A DNA stretch of 64,000 bases, from NCBI RefSeq assembly GCF_004745075.1, contig NZ_RHFH01000012.1, positions 1 to 64,000 of the forward strand, read 5' to 3'. This document shows, in pieces, positions 740-13,261 of the stretch. The notes beneath the pieces are model-generated. The model did not search any database. It was not told the DNA's origin and was given only the letters and a program-made list of their open reading frames with translations. The translations under genes and the position numbers were made by a program. Source of the stretch: Brevibacterium sp. S111 (lineage in GTDB: Bacteria > Actinomycetota > Actinomycetes > Actinomycetales > Brevibacteriaceae). Position 1 is the first letter of the stretch, and every line of letters starts with the position of its first letter.

Positions 740-1378
740 TCAGGCTTGGCCGGCCCGAGCATAGGCGCCGAGGACCTGACGCTCGGAGTCTCCGAGGTAG
801 GTTGCAAGCTTCTCCGCGGCGGCGCCCGGGCTGTCCTCGAGGTAGGTCTCGAGCACCTGGTGATTGCGGCCGATGAACGGCGCGTGCAGATAGTCGAGGA
901 CCTCGACCTTGAGGAAGGCCAAACGCAGCTCGGCGAGCACATTGGCAAACGAACGCATCAGCCGCCTGCTGTCCGAGAGCGAGACCACCGCGTTGTGGAA
1001 GGCCATGTTCGCCGTGCCCACGCTCATCCAGTCCTCGGCCGCCGCCGCAGTTTCCGCGGCTTCGATGGCCGCTCTCATCTGCGTCGCGTTCGGGTGGTTC
1101 CTCTGCGCGTGCTCGAGCACCGAGCATTCGACGTGATGACGGACCCGGTAGATGTCGATGACGTCGGCCGTGCTCGGCGAGGCCACGGACACGCCTCGGT
1201 GCGGGATATGTGTGACCAGCCCCTGCTCCCCGAGCACCCGGAACGCTTCGCGCAGGGTATTGCGGGAGACGTCGAACTCCTTGGCCAGAGACGTTTCGGA
1301 CAAGCGGTCGCCGGGGCGCAACTCACCGGCGATGAGCCGCTCGGTGAGTCTGTTGACCAGGGAGGATTCGTGATTCAC
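740..1378 (-). CDS. GntR-family (FadR/FCD subgroup) transcriptional regulator
   Basis: 212 residues, normal for the FCD subgroup. The N-terminal winged helix-turn-helix is clear (residues about 8-70, including SLAKEFDVSRNTLREAFRVL), followed by an all-helical FCD effector domain with the usual acidic and His residues (FHNAV, NHQVL) that bind a metal and a carboxylic acid ligand. The GTG start at 1378 is preceded by GGAGG only one base away, so the exact start is uncertain. It is transcribed divergently from the lactam/5-oxoproline operon that begins at 1591, which makes it the probable local regulator, with the inverted repeat at 1468-1486 as candidate site. Neighbouring pxp operons in other bacteria also carry local regulators; the effector here is not known. 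Confidence 0.85.
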   Translation of the reverse strand: MNHESSLVNRLTERLIAGELRPGDRLSETSLAKEFDVSRNTLREAFRVLGEQGLVTHIPHRGVSVASPSTADVIDIYRVRHHVECSVLEHAQRNHPNATQMRAAIEAAETAAAAEDWMSVGTANMAFHNAVVSLSDSRRLMRSFANVLAELRLAFLKVEVLDYLHAPFIGRNHQVLETYLEDSPGAAAEKLATYLGDSERQVLGAYARAGQA

Positions 1379-1590: not shown

Positions 1591-2883
1591 ATGTCGCAAT
1601 CACCGGAACCCCAACCATCCGGTTCCTCCTCGAACGCCGCCACCGGTTCGCAGCCGAACACCTTAGACGGCAAGATCAGCCGCACCGCCATCATCGGTGC
1701 CATCTTCCTCATGGCCACCTCGGCGATCGGGCCGGGATTCATCACGCAGACGGCCACGTTCACCGCCCAGATGGGTGCGGCCTTCGCCTTCGCGATCTTC
1801 GTGTCGATCCTCATCGACATCGCCATTCAGCTCAATGTCTGGCGGATGGTGACCTCCTCGGGCAAACGCGCCGCGCAGCTGGCATCCTCGGCCGTCCCCG
1901 GATCGGGCATCGTCCTCTCGATCCTCATCGTCATCGGCGGCCTGGCCTTCAACATCGGCAACATCGCCGGCGGTGGCCTCGGCCTCAACGCGCTGCTGGG
2001 CATCGACCCGAAGCTCGGCGGTCTCGTCACAGGAGTGCTGGCCATCGGGATCTTCCTGTTCAAACGCGCCGGCAAGGTCGTCGACACCGTCGTGCTCGTC
2101 CTCGGCGTCGGGATGATCATCCTCACCTGCATCGTCGCGATCGTGTCGAATCCGCCCGTCGGCGAGGCGATCAAGCAGTCCTTCGTCCCCGACACCATCA
2201 ACTTCGCGACCGTGACGACCATCGTCGGCGGCACAGTCGGCGGCTACATCACCTACTCCGGCGCTCACCGCTACCTCGACTCGGGCAAGATCGGACCGCA
2301 GCACGCTCCCTCGGTCATGCGCTCGGCGCTGTCGGGAATCCTCGTCACCGGCATCATGCGCTACGTGCTCTTCCTCGCCATCCTCGGCGTCGTCGCCTCC
2401 GGAGTCGCCCTCGACCTCGACTCGAATGTCGCGAACCCGGCCGGTCAGGCCTTCGCCGCCGTGCTCGGCGATGCCGGAATGCGCATCTTCGGGGCGATCT
2501 TCTGGGCTGCGGCACTGAGCTCGGTCATCGGCGCCGCCTACACCTCGGCGACCTTCCTCTCGGCGTTCTCCACGCGCCTCGCAGGCGGCTGGCCGCTGCA
2601 GCTGGCGACCGTGACCTTCATCGTCGTCTCACTCATCGTCTACCTCATCGTCGGCACCGCACCGGCTACGCTGCTCGTCTTCGTCGGCGGCTTCAACGGC
2701 CTCATCCTGCCCATCGGCCTGACGATCTTCATGTACATCGGCTGGTTCAGACCACGCCTGCTGAGCACGGACGCGTACCCGAAGTGGTTGCTCATCATCG
2801 GCACCGCGGCAACACTGGTCACGTGGTACACGGCTGTGCAGTCCATCGGCCCCATCTTCGCAATGATCGGAATCGGAGGGTGA
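1591..2883 (+). CDS. NRAMP-fold transporter (YcsG-like), candidate lactam/5-oxoproline carrier
   Basis: 430 residues, about eleven hydrophobic segments, after a hydrophilic Ser/Pro-rich N-terminus. The start ATG (1591) is chosen for GGAG at 1581-1584; an upstream in-frame start at 1483 would run through the promoter. The fold is the NRAMP/divalent-metal type found as YcsG in the B. subtilis ycs-kip (pxp) cluster. The Asp-Pro-Gly-Asn motif of helix 1 is replaced by ATSAIGPGF, and the Met-Pro-His region of helix 6 by [10 protein letters not shown], so the metal site of classical NRAMP proteins is missing. As first gene of the operon, with pxpA two bases downstream, it more likely imports an organic substrate such as 5-oxoproline; this is inference. 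Confidence 0.8.
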
Positions 2884-2885
2884 CA

Positions 2886-3671
2886 ATGACCACCACGAAC
2901 GAACTGAGAATCGACCTCAACTCTGACCTCGGGGAGAACGTACCCGACCGTGTCGTCAGCGACGATGCGGCCATGCTCGGCCTCGTCACGAGCGCCAACG
3001 TCTCGTGCGGCTTCCATGCCGGCAACCCCGAAGGCATCCGGGCCACCGTCGATGCCGCCACCCGCGGCGGCGTCGTCATCGGCGCCCACCCCGGCTACGA
3101 CGACTACGAAGGCTTCGGTCGACGCGCCCTCGACGTCCCGGCCGCAACCCTGCAGGCTCAGGTCGAATACCAGATCGGCGCCCTCCTCGGCCTGACCACC
3201 GCGGTCGGCGGCACGGTCTCCTACGTCAAGCCGCACGGCGGGCTGTACAACGCGATCGTCCGCGACCAGGCGCAGGCGAAGGTCGTCGTCGATGCGGTCA
3301 AGGCCGTCGACGACTCCCTTGTCTTCTTGGGCCTCGCCGGCAGCGTGGCCAACCGGGTTGCCGCCGAGGCCGGTCTGACGGTCGCCGCCGAAGCCTTCGC
3401 CGACCGCGCGTACAACCCCGACGGTTCCCTGGTCTCCCGCAGCGAGCCGAATGCCGTCCTCCACGACCCCGAGGCCGTGGCCGCCCGCGTGCTGCGTCTC
3501 GTCCAGACCGGTCAGGTCGAAGCGATCGACGGCAGCCTCGTCGATGTCGACGCCCAATCGATCTGCTTCCACGGCGATTCGCAGGGATCGATCGACATGG
3601 CCCGCGCCGCGCGCGAGCTCCTCGAATCCGAAGGGGTCACCATCGCCGCATTCGCCGGAGCCGGGCGATGA
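2886..3671 (+). CDS. pxpA: 5-oxoprolinase subunit A (LamB/YcsF family)
   Basis: 261 residues, full length. PxpA with PxpB and PxpC forms the prokaryotic ATP-dependent 5-oxoprolinase, which opens 5-oxo-L-proline to L-glutamate; homologues act on other lactams. Family motifs are present in order: DLNSDLGEN near the N-terminus, [29 protein letters not shown] and, near the C-terminus, CFHGDSQGS. The cytoplasmic enzyme is encoded two bases after the transporter and its last four bases (ATGA) overlap the next gene, which indicates translational coupling. Confidence 0.93.
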
Positions 3672-4453
3672 GCGCGAAGTCCACCGCCGGTGCCGAAGCC
3701 CGCGCCCGCATCCGGGCCGGGGCCTCGGAGCCCACCTCGGGGATGGCGCCGGGCCTCGTCCAGGCGAACCTCATCTCCGTGCCCGCCGACTGGGCCTTCG
3801 ACGTCCTGCTGTTCACCCAACGCAACCCGAAGCCGTGCCCGGTCATCGACGTCCTCGAACCCGGGCAGGTCGAATCGGGTCTGGCCCCGGGCAGCGATCT
3901 GCGCACCGACATCCCCGGCTACCGGATCTGGGAGAACGGCCAGCTCACCGGAGAGGTCACCGACGCCACGCATGCGTGGGAGGAACACCCGAACCTCGTG
4001 TCCTTCCTCATCGGCTGCTCCTTCACCTTCGAAAACGGACTCACCGAGGCGGGCATCCCGATCCGCCACCAGGACGCCGGACGCAATGTGCCGATGTACC
4101 GCACCTCCACCGCGTGCGCCCCGGCCGGTCGGATCAGCGGAGACATGGTCGTGTCCATGCGCCCGATCCCGGCCGCCCAGGTCGCCGAGGCGGTGCGCAT
4201 CACCGACCGCTTCCCCGCCGTCCACGGCGCTCCCGTCCACATCGGCGAACCCGCTCAGATCGGCATCACCGACCTGAGCACACCGGATTTCGGAGACGCC
4301 CCGGCCATCGCCGACGGTGACATTCCCGTGTTCTGGGCGTGCGGAGTCACCCCGCAGGCAGCCGTCCAAGCCTCGGGGGTGCCGTTTGCGATCACGCACT
4401 CACCAGGGAAGATGTTCATCACCGACGAACCGGAAGACACCTACCGCCGATGA
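3668..4453 (+). CDS. Putative hydro-lyase, DUF1445 / D-glutamate cyclase-like (YcsI)
   Basis: 261 residues. Family features seen: an N-terminal segment [26 protein letters not shown] in the middle, VSMRPIP, and near the C-terminus [15 protein letters not shown]. Related proteins are annotated as putative hydro-lyases. The family also includes a domain of mitochondrial D-glutamate cyclase, which interconverts D-glutamate and 5-oxo-D-proline, so a role in providing the D-isomer to the same pathway is plausible but not shown. It starts with ATGA overlapping the pxpA stop and itself overlaps the next gene by four bases, so it sits in the middle of a tightly coupled operon. Confidence 0.85.
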
Positions 4454-6090
4454 CGACCGACCTGACCTTCCACACCGCTTCCCGGCGTCACCTCCTCGTC
4501 GAATGCGCCGACCTGGCTGCGACGATGACCCTGCACCAGAGCCTGGAGACGGCTGACCTGCCCGGCGTCGTCGAGCTCATCCCCGCCGCCCGCACCGTGC
4601 TCATCGACTTCGATCCCCGCCGCACCGGCGCCGGGATCCTCGAGCGGGCGATCCGCGGGCTCGACCGCACCGAATCCGCCTGGGCTGCGGCTCGGGAGGT
4701 CAGCATCCCGGTGACCTACGACGGGGAAGACCTCGCCGAGGTGGCCGAACTCCTCTCCGTCTCCCCCACCGAGGTCATCGCCCGTCACCAAGCGGCGACC
4801 TGGGAGGTCGCATTCGCCGGGTTCGCTCCCGGTTTCGGCTACCTCGCCGGTGACGACGAACTCTTCGATGTTCCTCGCCGCTCTTCCCCGCGCACCCGTG
4901 TGCCCGTGGGTTCGGTGGCCCTGGCCGGCGAGTTCACCGGCGTCTACCCTCGATCCTCCCCCGGCGGGTGGCAGCTCATCGGACGCACCGAAGTGAGACT
5001 GTGGGATCTCGACCAGCAGCCCCCGGCTCTGTTCGTCCCCGGCACGATCGTGAAGTTCACCGATGCGGAGCGGGACTCCATCAGCGTGGGACACGAGGCA
5101 GCGAGCGCGAGCGCGGACGAACAGGCCGGCGCGTCTGCTCCGGCGACGGAGGCGAGCGCGTCATCGGCACACACCCTCGAGGTCCTCCGCCCCGGTCTGC
5201 AGCTGCTCGTCCAAGACCTCGGGCGTCCCGGCTTCGCCTCGATGGGCGTCAGCAGTGCCGGAGCCGCCGACCGCACGGCCCTGACGACCGCGAACCGGCT
5301 CGTCGGAAACGCCGAAGACGCGGCCGGACTCGAGAGCTTCGGCGGCGGGGCACGGCTGCGGTTCACCGGTGAAGGAGTCGCCGCGGTCGCCGGAGCCGAC
5401 GGGACGATCACCGTCACCGCCGGCGATGGCAGGGTGTACACGCCCCGCCTCGGCGAGGCCTTCGCTGTGGCCGACGGGGACGAACTCGAACTCGGCACCA
5501 CCACCCGCGGCATCCACCGCTACCTCGCCCTCCGCGGCGGCATCGACGTCACCACGGCCTTGGACAGTGCGTCGGCGGACACACTCGCGGGACTCGGGCC
5601 GGCAGCCCTCGGCAAGGGCACGACGCTCGACCTGCACACCCCCGTCGCCGCACCCCACCTCGTCGATCCGGTCCCAGCTGCCGCACGCGACCTGCCCCAG
5701 CCCGGTCAGACCGTGACTCTGACGGTGACCTTGGGCCCGCGGGAGGACTGGTTCACCTCGGCCGGCATCGACACGCTCCTGTCTCAGGAGTGGACGGTCA
5801 CCCACGAATCCGACCGGGTCGGGCTGCGCCTGTCCGGTGAGGTCCCGCTCGAACGTGCCCGCACCGGCGAGCTGCCGAGCGAGGGCGCGGTCACCGGGGC
5901 GCTGCAGGTCCCGCCGAACGGACAGCCGGTGCTCTTCGGCCCCGACCATCCGCTCACCGGCGGCTACCCGATCATCGCCAGCGTCGACGACACCGACCTC
6001 GCCGCGCAGCTGGCTCCGGGTGTCACGCTGCGCTTCACCACCTCTGCCCGTGCACACGAGGCACCCCGCACACACGAGAACGAAAGCTGA
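4450..6090 (+). CDS. Fused 5-oxoprolinase subunits B and C (KipI-KipA / AHS1-AHS2)
   Basis: 546 residues. Residues 1 to about 215 form the AHS1/KipI (PxpB) domain with APGFGYLAG and a conserved AGEFTG...SPGGW segment. A linker rich in Ala and Ser (about 216-242) follows. Residues 243 to the end form the AHS2/KipA (PxpC) domain with [30 protein letters not shown] and [10 protein letters not shown]. subtilis has these as separate kipI and kipA; fused versions are known in actinobacteria. The AHS1-AHS2 pair is also the carboxyltransferase part of urea carboxylase, which matters because a biotin carboxylase-BCCP gene follows after three bases. The start at 4450 (ATGA overlap with the preceding stop) is preferred over an in-frame ATG at 4339 inside the upstream gene. 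Confidence 0.9.
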
Positions 6091-6093
6091 ATC

Positions 6094-7884
6094 ATGTCGA
6101 CCATCCTCATCGCCAATCGCGGAGAAATCGCCGTCCGCATCATCCGCGCCTGCGCCGAACACGGGCACACCTCGGTGGCCGTCTACGCCGATCAGGACGC
6201 CGACGCCATGCATGTGCGCCTCGCCGACGAAGCCTTCGCTCTGCCCGGGACCGGTGCGGGTGAGACCTACCTCAACATCGAATCGATCCTCAGCGCGGCG
6301 CGGGCCGCCGGGGCCGATGCCGTCCACCCCGGCTACGGTTTTCTGTCGGAGAACGCGGACTTCGCCGCCGCCGTCGAGGCCGCCGGGCTCATCTGGATCG
6401 GCCCGAGCGCGGAGACCATCACGGCACTCGGCGACAAGGTCACTGCCCGCCAGCTCGCGCAGAAGGTCGGCGCTCCCCTGGCGCCGGGCATCGACCAGCC
6501 CCTGAAGGATGCGAGCGAGGTTGAGTCCTTCGCCGCCGAGGCGGGACTGCCGATCATCATCAAGGCCGCCCACGGCGGCGGCGGGCGCGGCATGAAGATC
6601 GTCCACGAGCTCACCGACGTGGCCGGCGCCTTCGATTCAGCGACCCGTGAGGCCGCCGAGGCGTTCGGTCGCTCCGAATGCTTCGTCGAGAAATACCTCG
6701 AACGTCCCCGTCACCTCGAAGTCCAGATCGTCGGCGACGGTCAGGGTCGTGTCGTGGCCGTCGGTGATCGCGACTGCTCCGCGCAGCGCCGCAACCAGAA
6801 ACTCATCGAGGAGGCACCCGCCCCGGGTTTGTCGGCGGATCAGCGCGAGCGCCTGCACCGTTCGGCCGAAGCGATCTGCGCCGAGGTGGACTACCGCGGT
6901 GCCGGCACCGTCGAATTCCTCCTCGCCGCCGACGGCACCATGACGTTCCTCGAAGTCAACACCCGGCTCCAGGTCGAACACCCTGTCACCGAGGCGACGA
7001 CCGGGATCGACCTCGTCGCCGAACAGTTCCGCATCGCCTTCGGCGACGGCCTGTCGCTCGACTCGACACCACGGCCGCAGGGGCATGCGATCGAGCTGCG
7101 CATCAACGCCGAGGACCCCGGCCGCGGCTTCCTGCCCACCCCGGGCCGCATCGACGTCCTCGACGTGCCCGGCGGGCCCGGCATCCGCTGGGATTCCGGT
7201 CTCCGTGCCGGTGACACGGTGCAGCCGGCCTTCGACTCCCTCTTCGCCAAGCTCATCGTCCACGGTCCCGGCCGGACTGCGGCAATCGCCCGGACGATCA
7301 CCGCGGCCAAGGAACTCCACGTCGAAGGGCCGGCCACCGTGCTGCCGTGTTCGCTGGCGATCCTGTCCGACGAGGCGTTCACCCGCCTCGGGGAAGACGG
7401 CGTCGAGGGCATCCACACTCAGTGGATCGAATCCGAGCTGCTGCCGCGCTTCGAGGCGCAGGACCGTCCCACACCGGGATCGGGTGGTCAGATGCAGCGG
7501 ATGCAGATCGAGATCGACGGGAAGCTCACGACCCTCGGGCTGCCCGCCGGGCTGCTCGCCGCCCTCGGTTCGGCCGGTGGGGCCGGTCAGGGCAGCACCG
7601 ATCAGGGCGGTGACAGCAGTGCCGCCGGCCACGGTGGAGCCGCCTCGGCGAGGGGAGGCGAAGGAGGGGCCGTCGCCGGGGATGTCACCGCACCTGTGCC
7701 CGGCAGCCTCGTCGACTTCCTCGTCGACGACGGTGCCGAAGTCGCCGCCGGAGACGAGGTCGCCGTGCTGTCGGCGATGAAGATGGAGACCCGGGTCGAA
7801 GCACCGGTCGCGGGCACGTTCCACCGGGTCGCGGCCGTCGGCGATGTCGTCGCGGTCGACCAGGCCATCGCACGCATCGGCTGA
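6094..7884 (+). CDS. Biotin carboxylase fused to biotin carboxyl carrier domain
   Basis: 596 residues. Biotin carboxylase domain (about 1-450): ANRGEIAVRI at the N-terminus, the Gly-rich ATP-grasp loop AHGGGGRGMKIV, EKYLERPRHLEVQ, and EVNTRLQVEHPVTE. A Gly/Ala/Ser-rich linker follows (about 490-525), then a biotinyl domain with the acceptor Lys563 in SAMKMET. It would carboxylate its own biotin with ATP and bicarbonate. No acyl-CoA carboxyltransferase (AccD/PccB type) lies nearby; the gene is the last of the pxp operon, three bases after the PxpB-PxpC fusion, whose AHS domains are homologous to the carboxyltransferase of urea carboxylase. The last 11 codons are the first unit of a 33-bp tandem repeat that continues past the stop. 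Confidence 0.92.
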   Translation: MSTILIANRGEIAVRIIRACAEHGHTSVAVYADQDADAMHVRLADEAFALPGTGAGETYLNIESILSAARAAGADAVHPGYGFLSENADFAAAVEAAGLIWIGPSAETITALGDKVTARQLAQKVGAPLAPGIDQPLKDASEVESFAAEAGLPIIIKAAHGGGGRGMKIVHELTDVAGAFDSATREAAEAFGRSECFVEKYLERPRHLEVQIVGDGQGRVVAVGDRDCSAQRRNQKLIEEAPAPGLSADQRERLHRSAEAICAEVDYRGAGTVEFLLAADGTMTFLEVNTRLQVEHPVTEATTGIDLVAEQFRIAFGDGLSLDSTPRPQGHAIELRINAEDPGRGFLPTPGRIDVLDVPGGPGIRWDSGLRAGDTVQPAFDSLFAKLIVHGPGRTAAIARTITAAKELHVEGPATVLPCSLAILSDEAFTRLGEDGVEGIHTQWIESELLPRFEAQDRPTPGSGGQMQRMQIEIDGKLTTLGLPAGLLAALGSAGGAGQGSTDQGGDSSAAGHGGAASARGGEGGAVAGDVTAPVPGSLVDFLVDDGAEVAAGDEVAVLSAMKMETRVEAPVAGTFHRVAAVGDVVAVDQAIARIG

Positions 7885-7965
7885 GGCATCGGCCAGTCCA
7901 TCGCACGCATCGGCTGCGGCATCGCCCAGTCCATCGCACGCATCGGCTGAGGCATCCCAGGCGAC
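7867..7965 (+). repeat. 33-bp tandem repeat, three units, spanning the end of the biotin carboxylase gene
   Basis: Three copies with a 33-base period (units aligned at 7867, 7900 and 7933), few mismatches. The first copy contains the last codons and the TGA of the carboxylase. The unit is 11 codons long, so beyond the stop the frame again reads QSIARIG twice, with TGC instead of TGA in copy 2 and a TGA in copy 3. Confidence 0.9.
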
Positions 7966-10170: not shown

Positions 10171-10220
10171 TATCGTGACGGGACGACGAAGACGTGCAGC
10201 GAAGCGGGAGCAGAATCGAC

Positions 10221-11867
10221 GTGACGATCTCACATTTCCACAATGGCACCATCTGGCTCGGGTCCGCCGGCGAGACGAGCGACGCACTGCTCGTCGTCGA
10301 CGGCATCGTCGCCGCGGTGGGTTCGGCCCTGGTCACGGATTCGCTCGCCGAGGCGTCCCTCGCCTCCCGTGCAGACGTCGAGAGAGTCGACCTCGACGGC
10401 GGCTTCCTCATGCCCGCCTTCGGCGATGGTCACGCCCACCCGATCTTCGGCGGGCTCGAAGCGGAGGGACCGCAGGTGCGCTCGTGTCCCAGCGTCGACG
10501 AGGTCGTCGCCGAGGTGCGTCGTTTCGCCGCAGCGAACCCGGACATCGAGTGGATCACCGGCGCATCGTATGACGGCAGCCTCGTCGAGGGCGGACTCTT
10601 CGACGCCCGCTGGCTCGACGAGGCGGTTCCCGACCGGCCGGTCGTGCTGCGCGCTTGGGACTATCACACCGTATGGTGCAATTCGCGGGCCCTTGAACTC
10701 GCCGACATCACGGCCGAGACACCCGAACCGATGCTGGGTGAGATCCCCCGCCGGGGCGACGGGTCGCCGCTCGGCACGCTGCGCGAGTGGGGCGCGGTCG
10801 ATCTCGTCGACGCCGTCCGTCCGCCGCTGGACGAGACCATTCGGCTCCGCGCTCTCGAATGTGCGGCCGACTACTACCTCCAGCGCGGCGTCACCTGGGT
10901 CCAAGATGCCTGGGTCGAGCCGGCCGACGTCGACACCTACTGCAAGGCCTCTGCCCAGGGGCGGCTCAAGCTCCGGTTCAACCTCGCCCTCTACGCCGAC
11001 CCGCGCCATTTCGCGCACCAGATGCCGGACATGATCGAAGCCAAGCAGCGCGTGGATGCTCTGGCCGATCCGCACCTCAGTGCCAACACCGTGAAGTTCT
11101 TTGCCGACGGGGTCGTCGAGAACGAGACCGGGTCACTGCTCAATCCCTACTGCTCCTCGCTGCACAATCACGGGCTGCGGGTGTGGGAGGGAGAGACCCT
11201 CGCCGAGGCGGTGCGAGCCGTCGACGCCGCGGGCTTCCAGGTTCACATCCACGCCATCGGCGATGCCGCCGTGCGGCAGGCCCTCGACGCCATCGAATCG
11301 GCGATCGTCGCGAACGGGCCCCGCGATCGCCGCCCAGTGATCGCCCACGCCCAGATCGTCGATTCCGCAGATCTCGCTCGCTTCGCCGAGCTCGGGGTCA
11401 TCGCGAACATGCAGCCTCTGTGGGCACAGCTCGATGACCTCATGACCGTCCTCACGATCCCCCGCCTCGGCGAGGAACGGGCAGCCACGCAGTATCGGAT
11501 GCGCAGCATCCTCGACAGCGGAGGGGATCTCTCTTTCGGCTCGGACTGGCCGTGCACCTCGGGCACGCCCGTCGAAGGTCTGGCGATCGGCACAAGCAGA
11601 CAGAACGAGCAGGGCGAACCAACCGGCGGATGGACACCGGAGGAGATCGTCGATATCGATCGTGCCCTCGACGCGTACTCGACGGCGGTGGCCCACCAAG
11701 CCTTCGCCGATCACTCTCCCGCAGCCTGGGGCGAGATTCGGCCCGGGGCGAGCGCTGATCTCATCAGATTCGACCGCGACCTTCGAGAACTGCCTCCGCG
11801 GGAACTCGCTGTGATGCCTGTTCACACCACCTACCTCGGCGGCGTTGCCGTGCATTCAGCACCCTGA
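10221..11867 (+). CDS. Metal-dependent amidohydrolase, YtcJ-like (Amidohydro_3)
   Basis: 548 residues from GTG 10221, chosen for the GGGAG at 10206-10210 and because the family begins directly with the first beta strand (HFHNGTIWLG); an upstream GTG at 10194 is possible. Metal-site motifs are in order: GHAHP (His71, His73), KFFADGVVENETG, VHIHAIGDAAVRQAL, VIAHAQI and FGSDWPCTSG. The family hydrolyses N-acyl and amide bonds of diverse small molecules; no specific substrate can be read from the sequence. It is divergent from the TetR regulator and followed after 14 bases by an amino-acid/amine permease, so the pair probably imports and cleaves one compound. Confidence 0.88.
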   Translation: MTISHFHNGTIWLGSAGETSDALLVVDGIVAAVGSALVTDSLAEASLASRADVERVDLDGGFLMPAFGDGHAHPIFGGLEAEGPQVRSCPSVDEVVAEVRRFAAANPDIEWITGASYDGSLVEGGLFDARWLDEAVPDRPVVLRAWDYHTVWCNSRALELADITAETPEPMLGEIPRRGDGSPLGTLREWGAVDLVDAVRPPLDETIRLRALECAADYYLQRGVTWVQDAWVEPADVDTYCKASAQGRLKLRFNLALYADPRHFAHQMPDMIEAKQRVDALADPHLSANTVKFFADGVVENETGSLLNPYCSSLHNHGLRVWEGETLAEAVRAVDAAGFQVHIHAIGDAAVRQALDAIESAIVANGPRDRRPVIAHAQIVDSADLARFAELGVIANMQPLWAQLDDLMTVLTIPRLGEERAATQYRMRSILDSGGDLSFGSDWPCTSGTPVEGLAIGTSRQNEQGEPTGGWTPEEIVDIDRALDAYSTAVAHQAFADHSPAAWGEIRPGASADLIRFDRDLRELPPRELAVMPVHTTYLGGVAVHSAP

Positions 11868-11881
11868 GCGAAAGGACGACG

Positions 11882-13261
11882 ATGCCCCACCCACAAGACA
11901 CCACAGCCCCTCACGGCGACGAGAAACCTCAGGCTGGCGGCGAAGGACAGCTCCGTCGAGCGCTCGGGGTCCCGTCTCTGGTGTTCTTCGGCCTTGTCTA
12001 CATGGTGCCCCTCACGGTTTTCACGACCTACGGCATCGTCACTCAGGTCAGCGGCGGTCGGGTGCCGCTGGCCTACGTGATCACTCTCCTCGCAATGGTC
12101 TTCACCGCCAGATCATACGCAAAGATGGCCCACGAACTGCCCTACGCCGGGTCCGCCTACACCTACACGCAGAAGAGCTTCGGGGCAGGCATCGGCTTCG
12201 TCGCCGGATGGGCACTGCTCCTCGACTACCTGTTCCTGCCGATGATCAACTACCTCGTCATCGGCATCTACCTGTCCGCCGCGTTCCCGATGATCCCCTC
12301 CTGGGTATTCGTGCTCACCGCGATCGTTCTCGTCACCCTCCTCAATGTCATCGGCATCGTCTCCGTGGCACGTGCCAATATCGTCATCATCGTGGCGCAG
12401 GCGATCTTCATCATCACCTTCGCGGCCCTTGGCATCGCCTCGATGTCGGGAACCGGCAGCGTCGACCTCGCCGTCCCGTTCACCGGCGATGGGACCGCGG
12501 AGGGATTCGGCAATGTCATGGCCGGCGCCGCGATCCTGTGCCTGTCGTTCCTCGGCTTCGATGCGGTCTCGACCCTGTCCGAGGAGGCCAAAGATGCCAA
12601 GCGCACCGTACCTCGCGCGATCGTCATCGCCACCATCACGGGCGGTCTCATCTACATTGTGCTCTCGTTCCTCGCTCAACTCGTCTACCCGTCGAATGAC
12701 TTCGCCGACGTCGACTCGGGCGCACTCGATGTCATGGCCGCCGCGGGAGGTGAATTCCTCACGATCTTCTTCACCGCCGCCTATGTCGCCGGCGCCTGCG
12801 GGTCCGCACTGACCTCGCAGGCCTCGGTCTCACGCATCCTCTTCGCAATGGGACGTGACGGTGTCCTGCCGAAGAGATTCTTCGGACGCCTCTCACCGCG
12901 TTTCCACAGCCCGATTCCGGCGACGCTGTCGGTTGGAGTGGTCTCACTGTTCGCATTGGCCATCGACCTCGGGTTCCTCTCGGAGATGATCAGCTTCGGC
13001 GCGCTCATCGCGTTCTCCGCAGTCAACCTCGCGGTGATCAAACACTTCATCATCGATGGGAAGCGGCGCGGAGCCCACGCCGTGATGAGCTTCATCGTGC
13101 TGCCGGGAATCGGGTTCTGCCTCACTCTGTGGCTGTGGACGAGCCTGTCACCGCGCACCCTGCTCATCGGCCTGGTCTGGCTCGTCATCGGCACCAGCTA
13201 CCTCACATTCGTCACACGAGGCTTCAGACGTCCGACGCCGATGCTTGACCTGAGCGAGTGA
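11882..13261 (+). CDS. APC-superfamily amino acid/amine permease
   Basis: 459 residues with about twelve hydrophobic segments. Conserved APC features are present: LRRALGVPSLVFFGLVYMVP in the first helix, the ELPYAGSAYTYTQKSFG segment after helix 2, and LSFLGFDAVSTLSEEAKD in helix 6, followed by RTVPRAI. The short form and PAGSAY-like segment place it near putrescine/ethanolamine/amino acid importers. The start has a GAAAGGACGACG leader, identical to the one before the acetyltransferase at 8943. The 14-base gap to the amidohydrolase indicates one operon under the TetR regulator. Confidence 0.88.
   Translation: MPHPQDTTAPHGDEKPQAGGEGQLRRALGVPSLVFFGLVYMVPLTVFTTYGIVTQVSGGRVPLAYVITLLAMVFTARSYAKMAHELPYAGSAYTYTQKSFGAGIGFVAGWALLLDYLFLPMINYLVIGIYLSAAFPMIPSWVFVLTAIVLVTLLNVIGIVSVARANIVIIVAQAIFIITFAALGIASMSGTGSVDLAVPFTGDGTAEGFGNVMAGAAILCLSFLGFDAVSTLSEEAKDAKRTVPRAIVIATITGGLIYIVLSFLAQLVYPSNDFADVDSGALDVMAAAGGEFLTIFFTAAYVAGACGSALTSQASVSRILFAMGRDGVLPKRFFGRLSPRFHSPIPATLSVGVVSLFALAIDLGFLSEMISFGALIAFSAVNLAVIKHFIIDGKRRGAHAVMSFIVLPGIGFCLTLWLWTSLSPRTLLIGLVWLVIGTSYLTFVTRGFRRPTPMLDLSE

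Follow-up and report, generated by a model that had tools for sequence, protein, structure and literature searches.

The 64,000-nucleotide stretch of Brevibacterium sp. S111 analysed here (contig NZ_RHFH01000012.1, positions 1 to 64,000; hereafter the window) carries an operon in which a fused PxpB-PxpC protein (PxpBC; 4450–6090, plus strand) is followed directly by a biotin carboxylase joined to a biotin carboxyl carrier protein (BC-BCCP; 6094–7884, plus strand). We consider it likely that this operon specifies a biotin-dependent 5-oxoprolinase, in which BC-BCCP would charge biotin, PxpBC would N-carboxylate 5-oxoproline and PxpA (2886–3671, plus strand) would open the activated ring. PxpABC is a widespread bacterial route for the disposal of 5-oxoproline, and the literature describes its chemistry as a phosphorylation that is assumed. 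Activation through biotin, if true, would change the reaction mechanism, and an N-carboxylated lactam would be a further product of biotin enzymes. The parts are ordinary and their combination is unusual: the biotin-linked PxpABC variant is new, and the linkage in Staphylococcus aureus is already in print. Neither a proposal nor a test of biotin-dependent 5-oxoproline carboxylation was found in the part of the literature that was searched.

Components of the operon

PxpBC is a single frame of 546 amino acids, with CT_C_D (PF02682, 2.8e-62) at residues 6–195 followed by CT_A_B (PF02626, 8.8e-74) at residues 265–530, and is the only place in the S111 genome with a PF02682 match. No kinase or ATP-grasp family was detected in it by Pfam. 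PxpA belongs to the LamB/YcsF family (PF03746, 1.7e-91), is probably a lactam ring-opening hydrolase, and scores 331 bits against a cut-off of 226 with the NCBIfam PxpA subfamily model. The Pfam models for PxpA, PxpB and PxpC are all matched far above cut-off, which places the window's proteins among the PxpABC systems; with TIGR00724 (229.7, cut-off 230.2) and TIGR00370 (140.5, cut-off 145.55) PxpBC falls slightly short.

An AlphaFold2 model of PxpBC built from a 76-row alignment has a pLDDT of 92.3; a poor model from 15 sequences (pLDDT 61.8) was set aside before the fold search. The matches include Msmeg0435-0436 (3mml_G; Z 39.4, rmsd 1.6, 284 residues), TTHA0988 (Z 37.9, rmsd 2.6, 461 residues), chain A of Escherichia coli YbgJK (Z 35.3, rmsd 1.9, 278 residues), urea carboxylase (Z 26.4, rmsd 1.9, 288 residues) and 9yx5_W (Z 25.5, rmsd 2.1, 204 residues) and, over PxpC, the urea amidolyase of Kluyveromyces lactis (5i8i; Z 34.5, rmsd 1.9, 288 residues, 32% identity). 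Rows ranking under these carboxyltransferase (CT) homologues have Z of 10.7 or less and each cover one part of the model. Pxp rows have 39 PxpC columns conserved to 90% or more, and at 34 of these the residue most frequent in urea-type CTs is the same. Judged from alignment and predicted fold, PxpBC is a CT of the urea carboxylase kind with a signature of its own in the PxpB half.

The BC-BCCP protein (596 amino acids) possesses Biotin_carb_N, CPSase_L_D2, Biotin_carb_C and Biotin_lipoyl, with no BT domain match in Pfam, and its biotinylation motif, AMKM with Lys563, lies 33 residues ahead of the C-terminus. The active site of E. coli AccC, which we take to comprise K116, K159, H209, K238, E276, E288, N290, R292, Q294, V295, E296 and R338, and also H236, is kept entirely apart from H236. 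An ATP-grasp BC with these catalytic residues together with a biotinylation motif is what characterises an AccA3-like alpha subunit and, save for the residue at H236, is what was found. The domain function of the BC step is established in homologues, and the residues that it would require are seen in the window. Three 33-bp tandem copies (92% matches; 7856–7956) run from the last codons of this gene to beyond its stop.

The genes for PxpA and a DUF1445 protein, and for the latter and PxpBC, share ATGA overlaps, and PxpBC and BC-BCCP are separated by 3 nucleotides. Starts and stops placed in this way suggest that the four genes are transcribed together.

Biotin_carb_C occurs at four places in the genome: the operon gene, a 1136-amino acid frame of pyruvate-carboxylase size on contig C2, an AccA-like 611-amino acid frame on C36, which shares 45% identity with the operon BC across 580 residues, and a BC adjoining a CT on C13. 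Carboxyltransferases of the PF01039 family are found at three places, on C36, C13 and C2, and a profile search of the genome's contigs gave none on that of the window (C5). The initial annotation had pointed to the fused PxpB-PxpC beside a biotin protein with Lys563, to the lack of an acyl-CoA CT nearby, and to the two proteins together holding every module of a urea-carboxylase-like enzyme (BC, BCCP, CT_A_B and CT_C_D); on all of these points domains, catalytic residues, motif and genome search agree with it.

Its statement that PxpB and PxpC are related to the CT of urea carboxylase (K. lactis urea carboxylase/urea amidolyase, TIGR02712) stands as regards the common modules, the PxpC fold and the conserved PxpC columns, and needs amending as regards a plain equivalence. 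The window's set is carried on two proteins, its CT halves are reversed, Arg143 replaces the base Lys1605, and PxpA takes the place of allophanate hydrolase. We rejected a simple "urea carboxylase" label on the basis of Arg143, the PxpA partner and the TIGR02712 scores of the two proteins (164 and 512 bits against a cut-off of 1304).

With the PxpABC systems of Bacillus subtilis, E. coli and Corynebacterium glutamicum (pxpTABC) the operon shares PxpA, PxpB, PxpC and a likely substrate, 5-oxoproline, and with the last also an NRAMP-like transporter and a GntR regulator. Unlike them, it has PxpB and PxpC fused and then a dedicated BC-BCCP gene: the annotation of the 6 kb surrounding E. coli pxpBCA shows no such gene, and the C. 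glutamicum paper mentions no carboxylase (PMC13274462).

Linkage of PxpBC to biotin carboxylases in other genomes

Twenty-six loci were fetched for PxpBC. All 24 from Brevibacterium (best segment 68–85% identical) carry PxpA, DUF1445, an NRAMP-like gene and a BC; the two others (54–55%), from Microbacterium commune and an Actinomycetales bacterium, have PxpA and no BC. Of 296 Actinomycetota genomes drawn evenly, 76 had PF02682, at 88 places. Leaving out the window's own and seven in frames of more than 1000 amino acids (taken as complete urea carboxylases), 80 loci were fetched, and with eight of these classed as urea-type CTs, 72 PxpB loci remained. A BC lies within 6 kb of PxpC at 21 and BCCP alone at one; 49 have neither, and one (L093) has no PxpC match and no BC. 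Four BC-less loci (L064, L081, L119 and L120) are at contig ends, where a neighbour could be missed. Against the 21 observed, about 1.5 of 72 would be expected by chance (a chance of about 2.1% for each locus over 19.5 kb, derived from the BC density of 23 sampled genomes that were picked because they had a linked BC or were unclear). Since only a few lineages are involved (f27, f19/f35 and f2), these are not 21 independent events. The co-occurrence for which the initial annotation suggested a search is real; in this sample it falls in those few lineages, and loci with neither BC nor BCCP nearby outnumber it.

PxpA is present at all 56 BC-linked loci (in two pieces at L157), including the 21 of the sample, and at none of the eight urea-type CT loci; DUF1445 lies inside the fetched stretch of 39 of the 56. 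A phmmer scan of the neighbourhoods gave no AccD5-like CT (one query from the S111 genome and a 60-bit floor, which a distant CT could escape). Each of the eight f27 genomes has two BCs and a single frame in which two PF01039 pieces lie, which fits a pairing without proving it. The eight urea-type CTs themselves (L122–L125, L127–L129 and L139) stand alone, with no BC match up to about 9 kb on either side (less at contig ends) and no in-frame biotin motif, and would therefore have to rely on a BC in trans, such as an AccA3.

The linked genes are arranged in several ways. All eight f27 genomes have the order PxpB-PxpC-BCCP-BC-DUF1445-PxpA, which recurs with an additional NRAMP gene on a Lactiplantibacillus plasmid; f19 genomes have a BC divergent from PxpB-PxpC-PxpA-BCCP (with no BCCP match at L137 and L138, near contig ends), and the f35 genome has PxpA-PxpB-PxpC-BCCP-BC, all in one direction. 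Outside Actinomycetota the evidence consists of 15 of 16 plasmid regions hand-chosen from the matches (725 records for PxpBC and 240 for DUF1445), the sixteenth, from Tsukamurella, being actinobacterial. Eleven of the 16 are BC-linked, a count that is not a rate. The window's fused forms are found on eight plasmids (Klebsiella, Haematobacter, Pararhizobium, Pseudomonas aeruginosa, Bartonella, Thioclava, Rhizobium CB3060 and Eleftheria) and separate forms on those of Rhizobium leguminosarum and Paraburkholderia; five other regions have no BC nearby. One BCCP match (L158, 29 bits) is doubtful. The Rhizobium CB3060 locus lacks NRAMP and DUF1445 and has in their place DUF1989 and an ABC transporter for amino acids. 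Klebsiella plasmid pKpN06-SIL has a second BC-BCCP beside a DUF1989 gene (L145:941–2344), with an IS1 transposase between it and the full pxp-BC operon.

In a tree of 66 BCs the Pxp label requires six gains or losses, at least four of them forced by the starred branches. One Pxp-linked group lies with the AccA-like BC of the S111 genome (inner forks partly weak, 97/73), another adjoins E. coli AccC, and two more are elsewhere. Among the 99 rows of a PxpC tree the BC label switches six times, at least three of them forced. Since BCs of different lineages stand beside PxpBC, inheritance of one frozen operon becomes a harder explanation.

Lys1605 of the K. lactis enzyme is most probably the general base of the CT reaction (PMC5770610) and corresponds, in the PDB alignment, to the Lys of the TKYNP motif. 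In this column seven of eight urea-type CT rows have Lys, and BC-linked rows have Arg in 45 cases and Lys in nine. These nine are the f19/f35 split type, with the motif PKYVRPRT, as has the BCCP-only row L132. Among the printed alignment columns no residue separates BC-linked from BC-less PxpBC of the canonical type; only the split type is distinct. Ten of the 12 split-type BC-linked loci (L130, L131, L133–L138 and L140–L143) have both BC and BCCP. In L131, the sole one tested with models, CT_C_D, CT_A_B, LamB_YcsF, BC and Biotin_lipoyl are all present. The PxpB of this locus scores 108.8 bits with the urea carboxylase model against 61.3 bits with the PxpB model. A complete urea-carboxylase-like set with PxpA, lysine included, therefore exists in this phylum. 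The split sets (L130–L143 minus L132 and L139), in which PxpB is about 316 amino acids long in the two read and the BCCP motif is EVMKSF in L131 and L142, perhaps represent a separate biotin-dependent carboxylase that acts on a lactam or an amide.

A PDB entry released on 2025-11-26, 9yx5, is entitled "Structure of the long chain acyl-CoA carboxylase complex from Mycobacterium smegmatis with MSMEG_0435-MSMEG_0436 bound". In PDB sequence searches its code came up for the AccA3 sequence and for PxpC and PxpB homologues, the latter with two chains each. As read from this title and these matches, it is independent physical support for PxpBC homologues on an AccA3-containing complex. Its PxpB chain is 44% identical to that of the window and in the alignment has Arg at the base position (motif VPRRAEPRTSVP). 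As in the window, PxpC and PxpB homologues occur with an AccA3-type BC-BCCP; it differs in that the BC is AccA3 itself, that AccD4/AccD5 are present and that the related loci L074 and L075 have no BC or PxpA nearby. Family f7 is taken to be Mycobacterium-like, since it is to the M. smegmatis chain that the PxpB of L074 comes closest. Eight of its PxpBC loci (L074, L075, L077, L082, L086 and L114–L116) have neither BC nor PxpA and three (L084, L087 and L117) have PxpA without BC, a pattern that fits a borrowed AccA3. The module logic of the initial annotation, that is, BC and BCCP with a urea-carboxylase-type CT and PxpA, is strengthened by this complex, by the linkage to varied BCs and by the split version with Lys.

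Proposed reaction, objections and alternatives

In the reaction we propose the BC domain, with ATP and bicarbonate, would carboxylate the biotin on its own BCCP (Lys563), making the biotin carboxylase, not PxpBC, the consumer of ATP. The carboxybiotin would swing into the CT formed by PxpB and PxpC and the carboxyl would pass to the lactam nitrogen of 5-oxoproline, much as urea carboxylase acts on urea. PxpA would then open the N-carboxylated, amide-activated lactam, and the N-carboxyglutamate would lose CO2 to give glutamate. We assign this step to PxpA because it is the hydrolase candidate in the operon, and because of the chemistry of N-acyl carbamates; the initial annotation had seen in PxpA merely a lactam-binding partner, and the role of ring-opening hydrolase suits it better. 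The GntR protein would sense 5-oxoproline and the NRAMP-like protein would import it.

Growth of C. glutamicum on 5-oxoproline requires the NRAMP-like PxpT together with PxpABC, and its GntR regulator PxpR binds 5-oxoproline (KD 726 nM) and not L-proline, L-glutamate, L-glutamine or L-aspartate (PMC13274462); the window's GntR and NRAMP-like genes are of these same families. Directly after the BC-type operon in Eleftheria terrae comes pcp, the gene for pyroglutamyl peptidase, which is also found beside four BC-less loci. Conserved pxpABC genes are described in Thermococci (PMC9258230). A six-gene operon of S. aureus includes pxpB, pxpC and pxpA along with accB and accC, the BC and BCCP genes being separate there, unlike those of the window, and filed under fatty acid synthesis (PMC11315280); in Lactiplantibacillus pentosus an additional BCCP/BC pair is read as an extra acetyl-CoA carboxylase (ACC) copy, with pxpB and pxpC noted separately (PMC12427679). 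Were our proposal true, accB and accC so filed would have another role in S. aureus, perhaps also in Lactiplantibacillus, and there would be a reason for PxpBC homologues to bind the mycobacterial acyl-CoA carboxylase complex. ATP-dependent lactam opening is shared by OPLAH/hydantoinase-type 5-oxoprolinase and by the caprolactamase CapAB. For the latter a role of bicarbonate is discussed, but it is stated not to be similar to PxpABC, and no biotin is named there for it (PMC8453981).

Several observations weigh against a biotin-dependent reaction. In the alignment Arg143 of the window's PxpB occupies the position of Lys1605, all 55 BC-less PxpB rows likewise have Arg, and at 23 well-conserved PxpB columns urea carboxylase agrees at eight and differs at 14, with one tie; on account of the Arg and the differing columns, the chemistry of PxpBC may differ from that of urea carboxylase. 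The window's BC has Asn at the H236 position. ATPase activity has been cited for co-purified PxpB and PxpC (PMC8453981). The 9yx5 complex holds two propionyl-CoA carboxylase beta chains, read as AccD5/AccD4 from the chain names D5a and D4a, and is absent from the PDB matches of PxpA. In 2017 Niehaus and colleagues reportedly reconstituted B. subtilis PxpABC from recombinant A, B and C, with no biotin protein. Close relatives at 54–56% identity (L029, L030 and L078) have no BC, nor have the 49 sampled loci mentioned above. Such BC-less loci being common and the evidence being one of sequence and context, we can but infer the carboxylation.

A broader version, in which the whole PxpABC family is biotin dependent, every PxpBC acts as a lactam N-carboxyltransferase and the ATP dependence on record belongs to the biotin carboxylase, is tentative, and we lean against it. 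It supposes that a housekeeping BC and BCCP are borrowed in BC-less lineages (Mycobacterium, and perhaps also E. coli and B. subtilis), for which 9yx5 is a hint in the case of M. smegmatis. The main evidence against it is the sufficiency that recombinant PxpA, B and C are said to have.

For the window's operon itself, the biotin protein might instead be an extra acyl-CoA carboxylase alpha subunit serving an unlinked CoA carboxyltransferase, with PxpABC phosphorylating 5-oxoproline and the two having in common their regulation only. There are three PF01039 CTs elsewhere in the genome, and that on C2 (a 652-amino acid frame) has as the sole BC of its contig the 1136-amino acid frame some 150 kb off; the window's BC resembles AccA3, and published readings tend in this direction, as fatty acid synthesis in one case (PMC11315280) and an extra ACC in the other (PMC12427679). 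We nevertheless think this unlikely, since the genome already has an AccA-like BC on C36 and another beside the C13 CT, since BCs of different lineages accompany PxpBC with no AccD5-like CT in the neighbourhoods scanned, and since 9yx5 places PxpBC homologues on an AccA3-containing complex.

There is also a small chance that the N-carboxylase is real and biotin dependent and that its substrate, with PxpA as the hydrolase, is another lactam or cyclic amide such as 5-oxo-D-proline. The D-glutamate-cyclase-like DUF1445 protein, in this operon and at those 39 of 56 BC-linked loci, would suit such a substrate, as would the Rhizobium CB3060 locus with its different transporter and DUF1989 in place of NRAMP and DUF1445. 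Against this, pcp adjoins a BC-type operon, and the GntR and NRAMP partners correspond to those with which C. glutamicum handles 5-oxo-L-proline, its regulator binding none of the four L-amino acids named above (PMC13274462). That PxpBC phosphorylates the lactam, which "is assumed" in the introduction of PMC13274462 and has in its favour the ATPase activity cited in PMC8453981, and that the biotin protein is regulatory or unrelated, strikes us as very improbable given that Pfam showed no kinase or ATP-grasp family in PxpBC, that PxpC has the fold of the urea carboxylase CT and that BC and BCCP accompany PxpBC in several arrangements.

Flanking genes

Upstream of the operon lies a divergent GntR/FCD regulator (740–1378, minus strand; Pfam GntR and FCD), from its place in the operon a probable 5-oxoproline sensor of the PxpR type. 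A divergent GntR gene ahead of the transporter is present in annotated plasmid operons as well. The NRAMP-like transporter (1591–2883, plus strand, ATG start) is probably a 5-oxoproline importer of the PxpT/YcsG type; its Pfam Nramp match (1.5e-20) was obtained with a translation from position 1588. Between the two genes an inverted repeat, ACAATC-N7-GATTGT (1468–1486), is a candidate operator for the regulator. A repeat of the form ACAAT-N7..11-ATTGT was found there at 22 of the 23 Brevibacterium loci scanned, a count made without a shuffled control; L015 has another sequence and L018 none.

The DUF1445 protein (3668–4453, plus strand; PF07286, 1.9e-67) is a putative hydro-lyase of the D-glutamate cyclase family and scores 398 bits with NF003969 against a cut-off of 324. 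Kept inside a probable 5-oxoprolinase operon, it may have a role around 5-oxo-D-proline or D-glutamate. A few kb downstream of the operon (10194–13261) an Amidohydrolase_3 protein is followed by an amino-acid permease, by Pfam possibly another pair for amide use.

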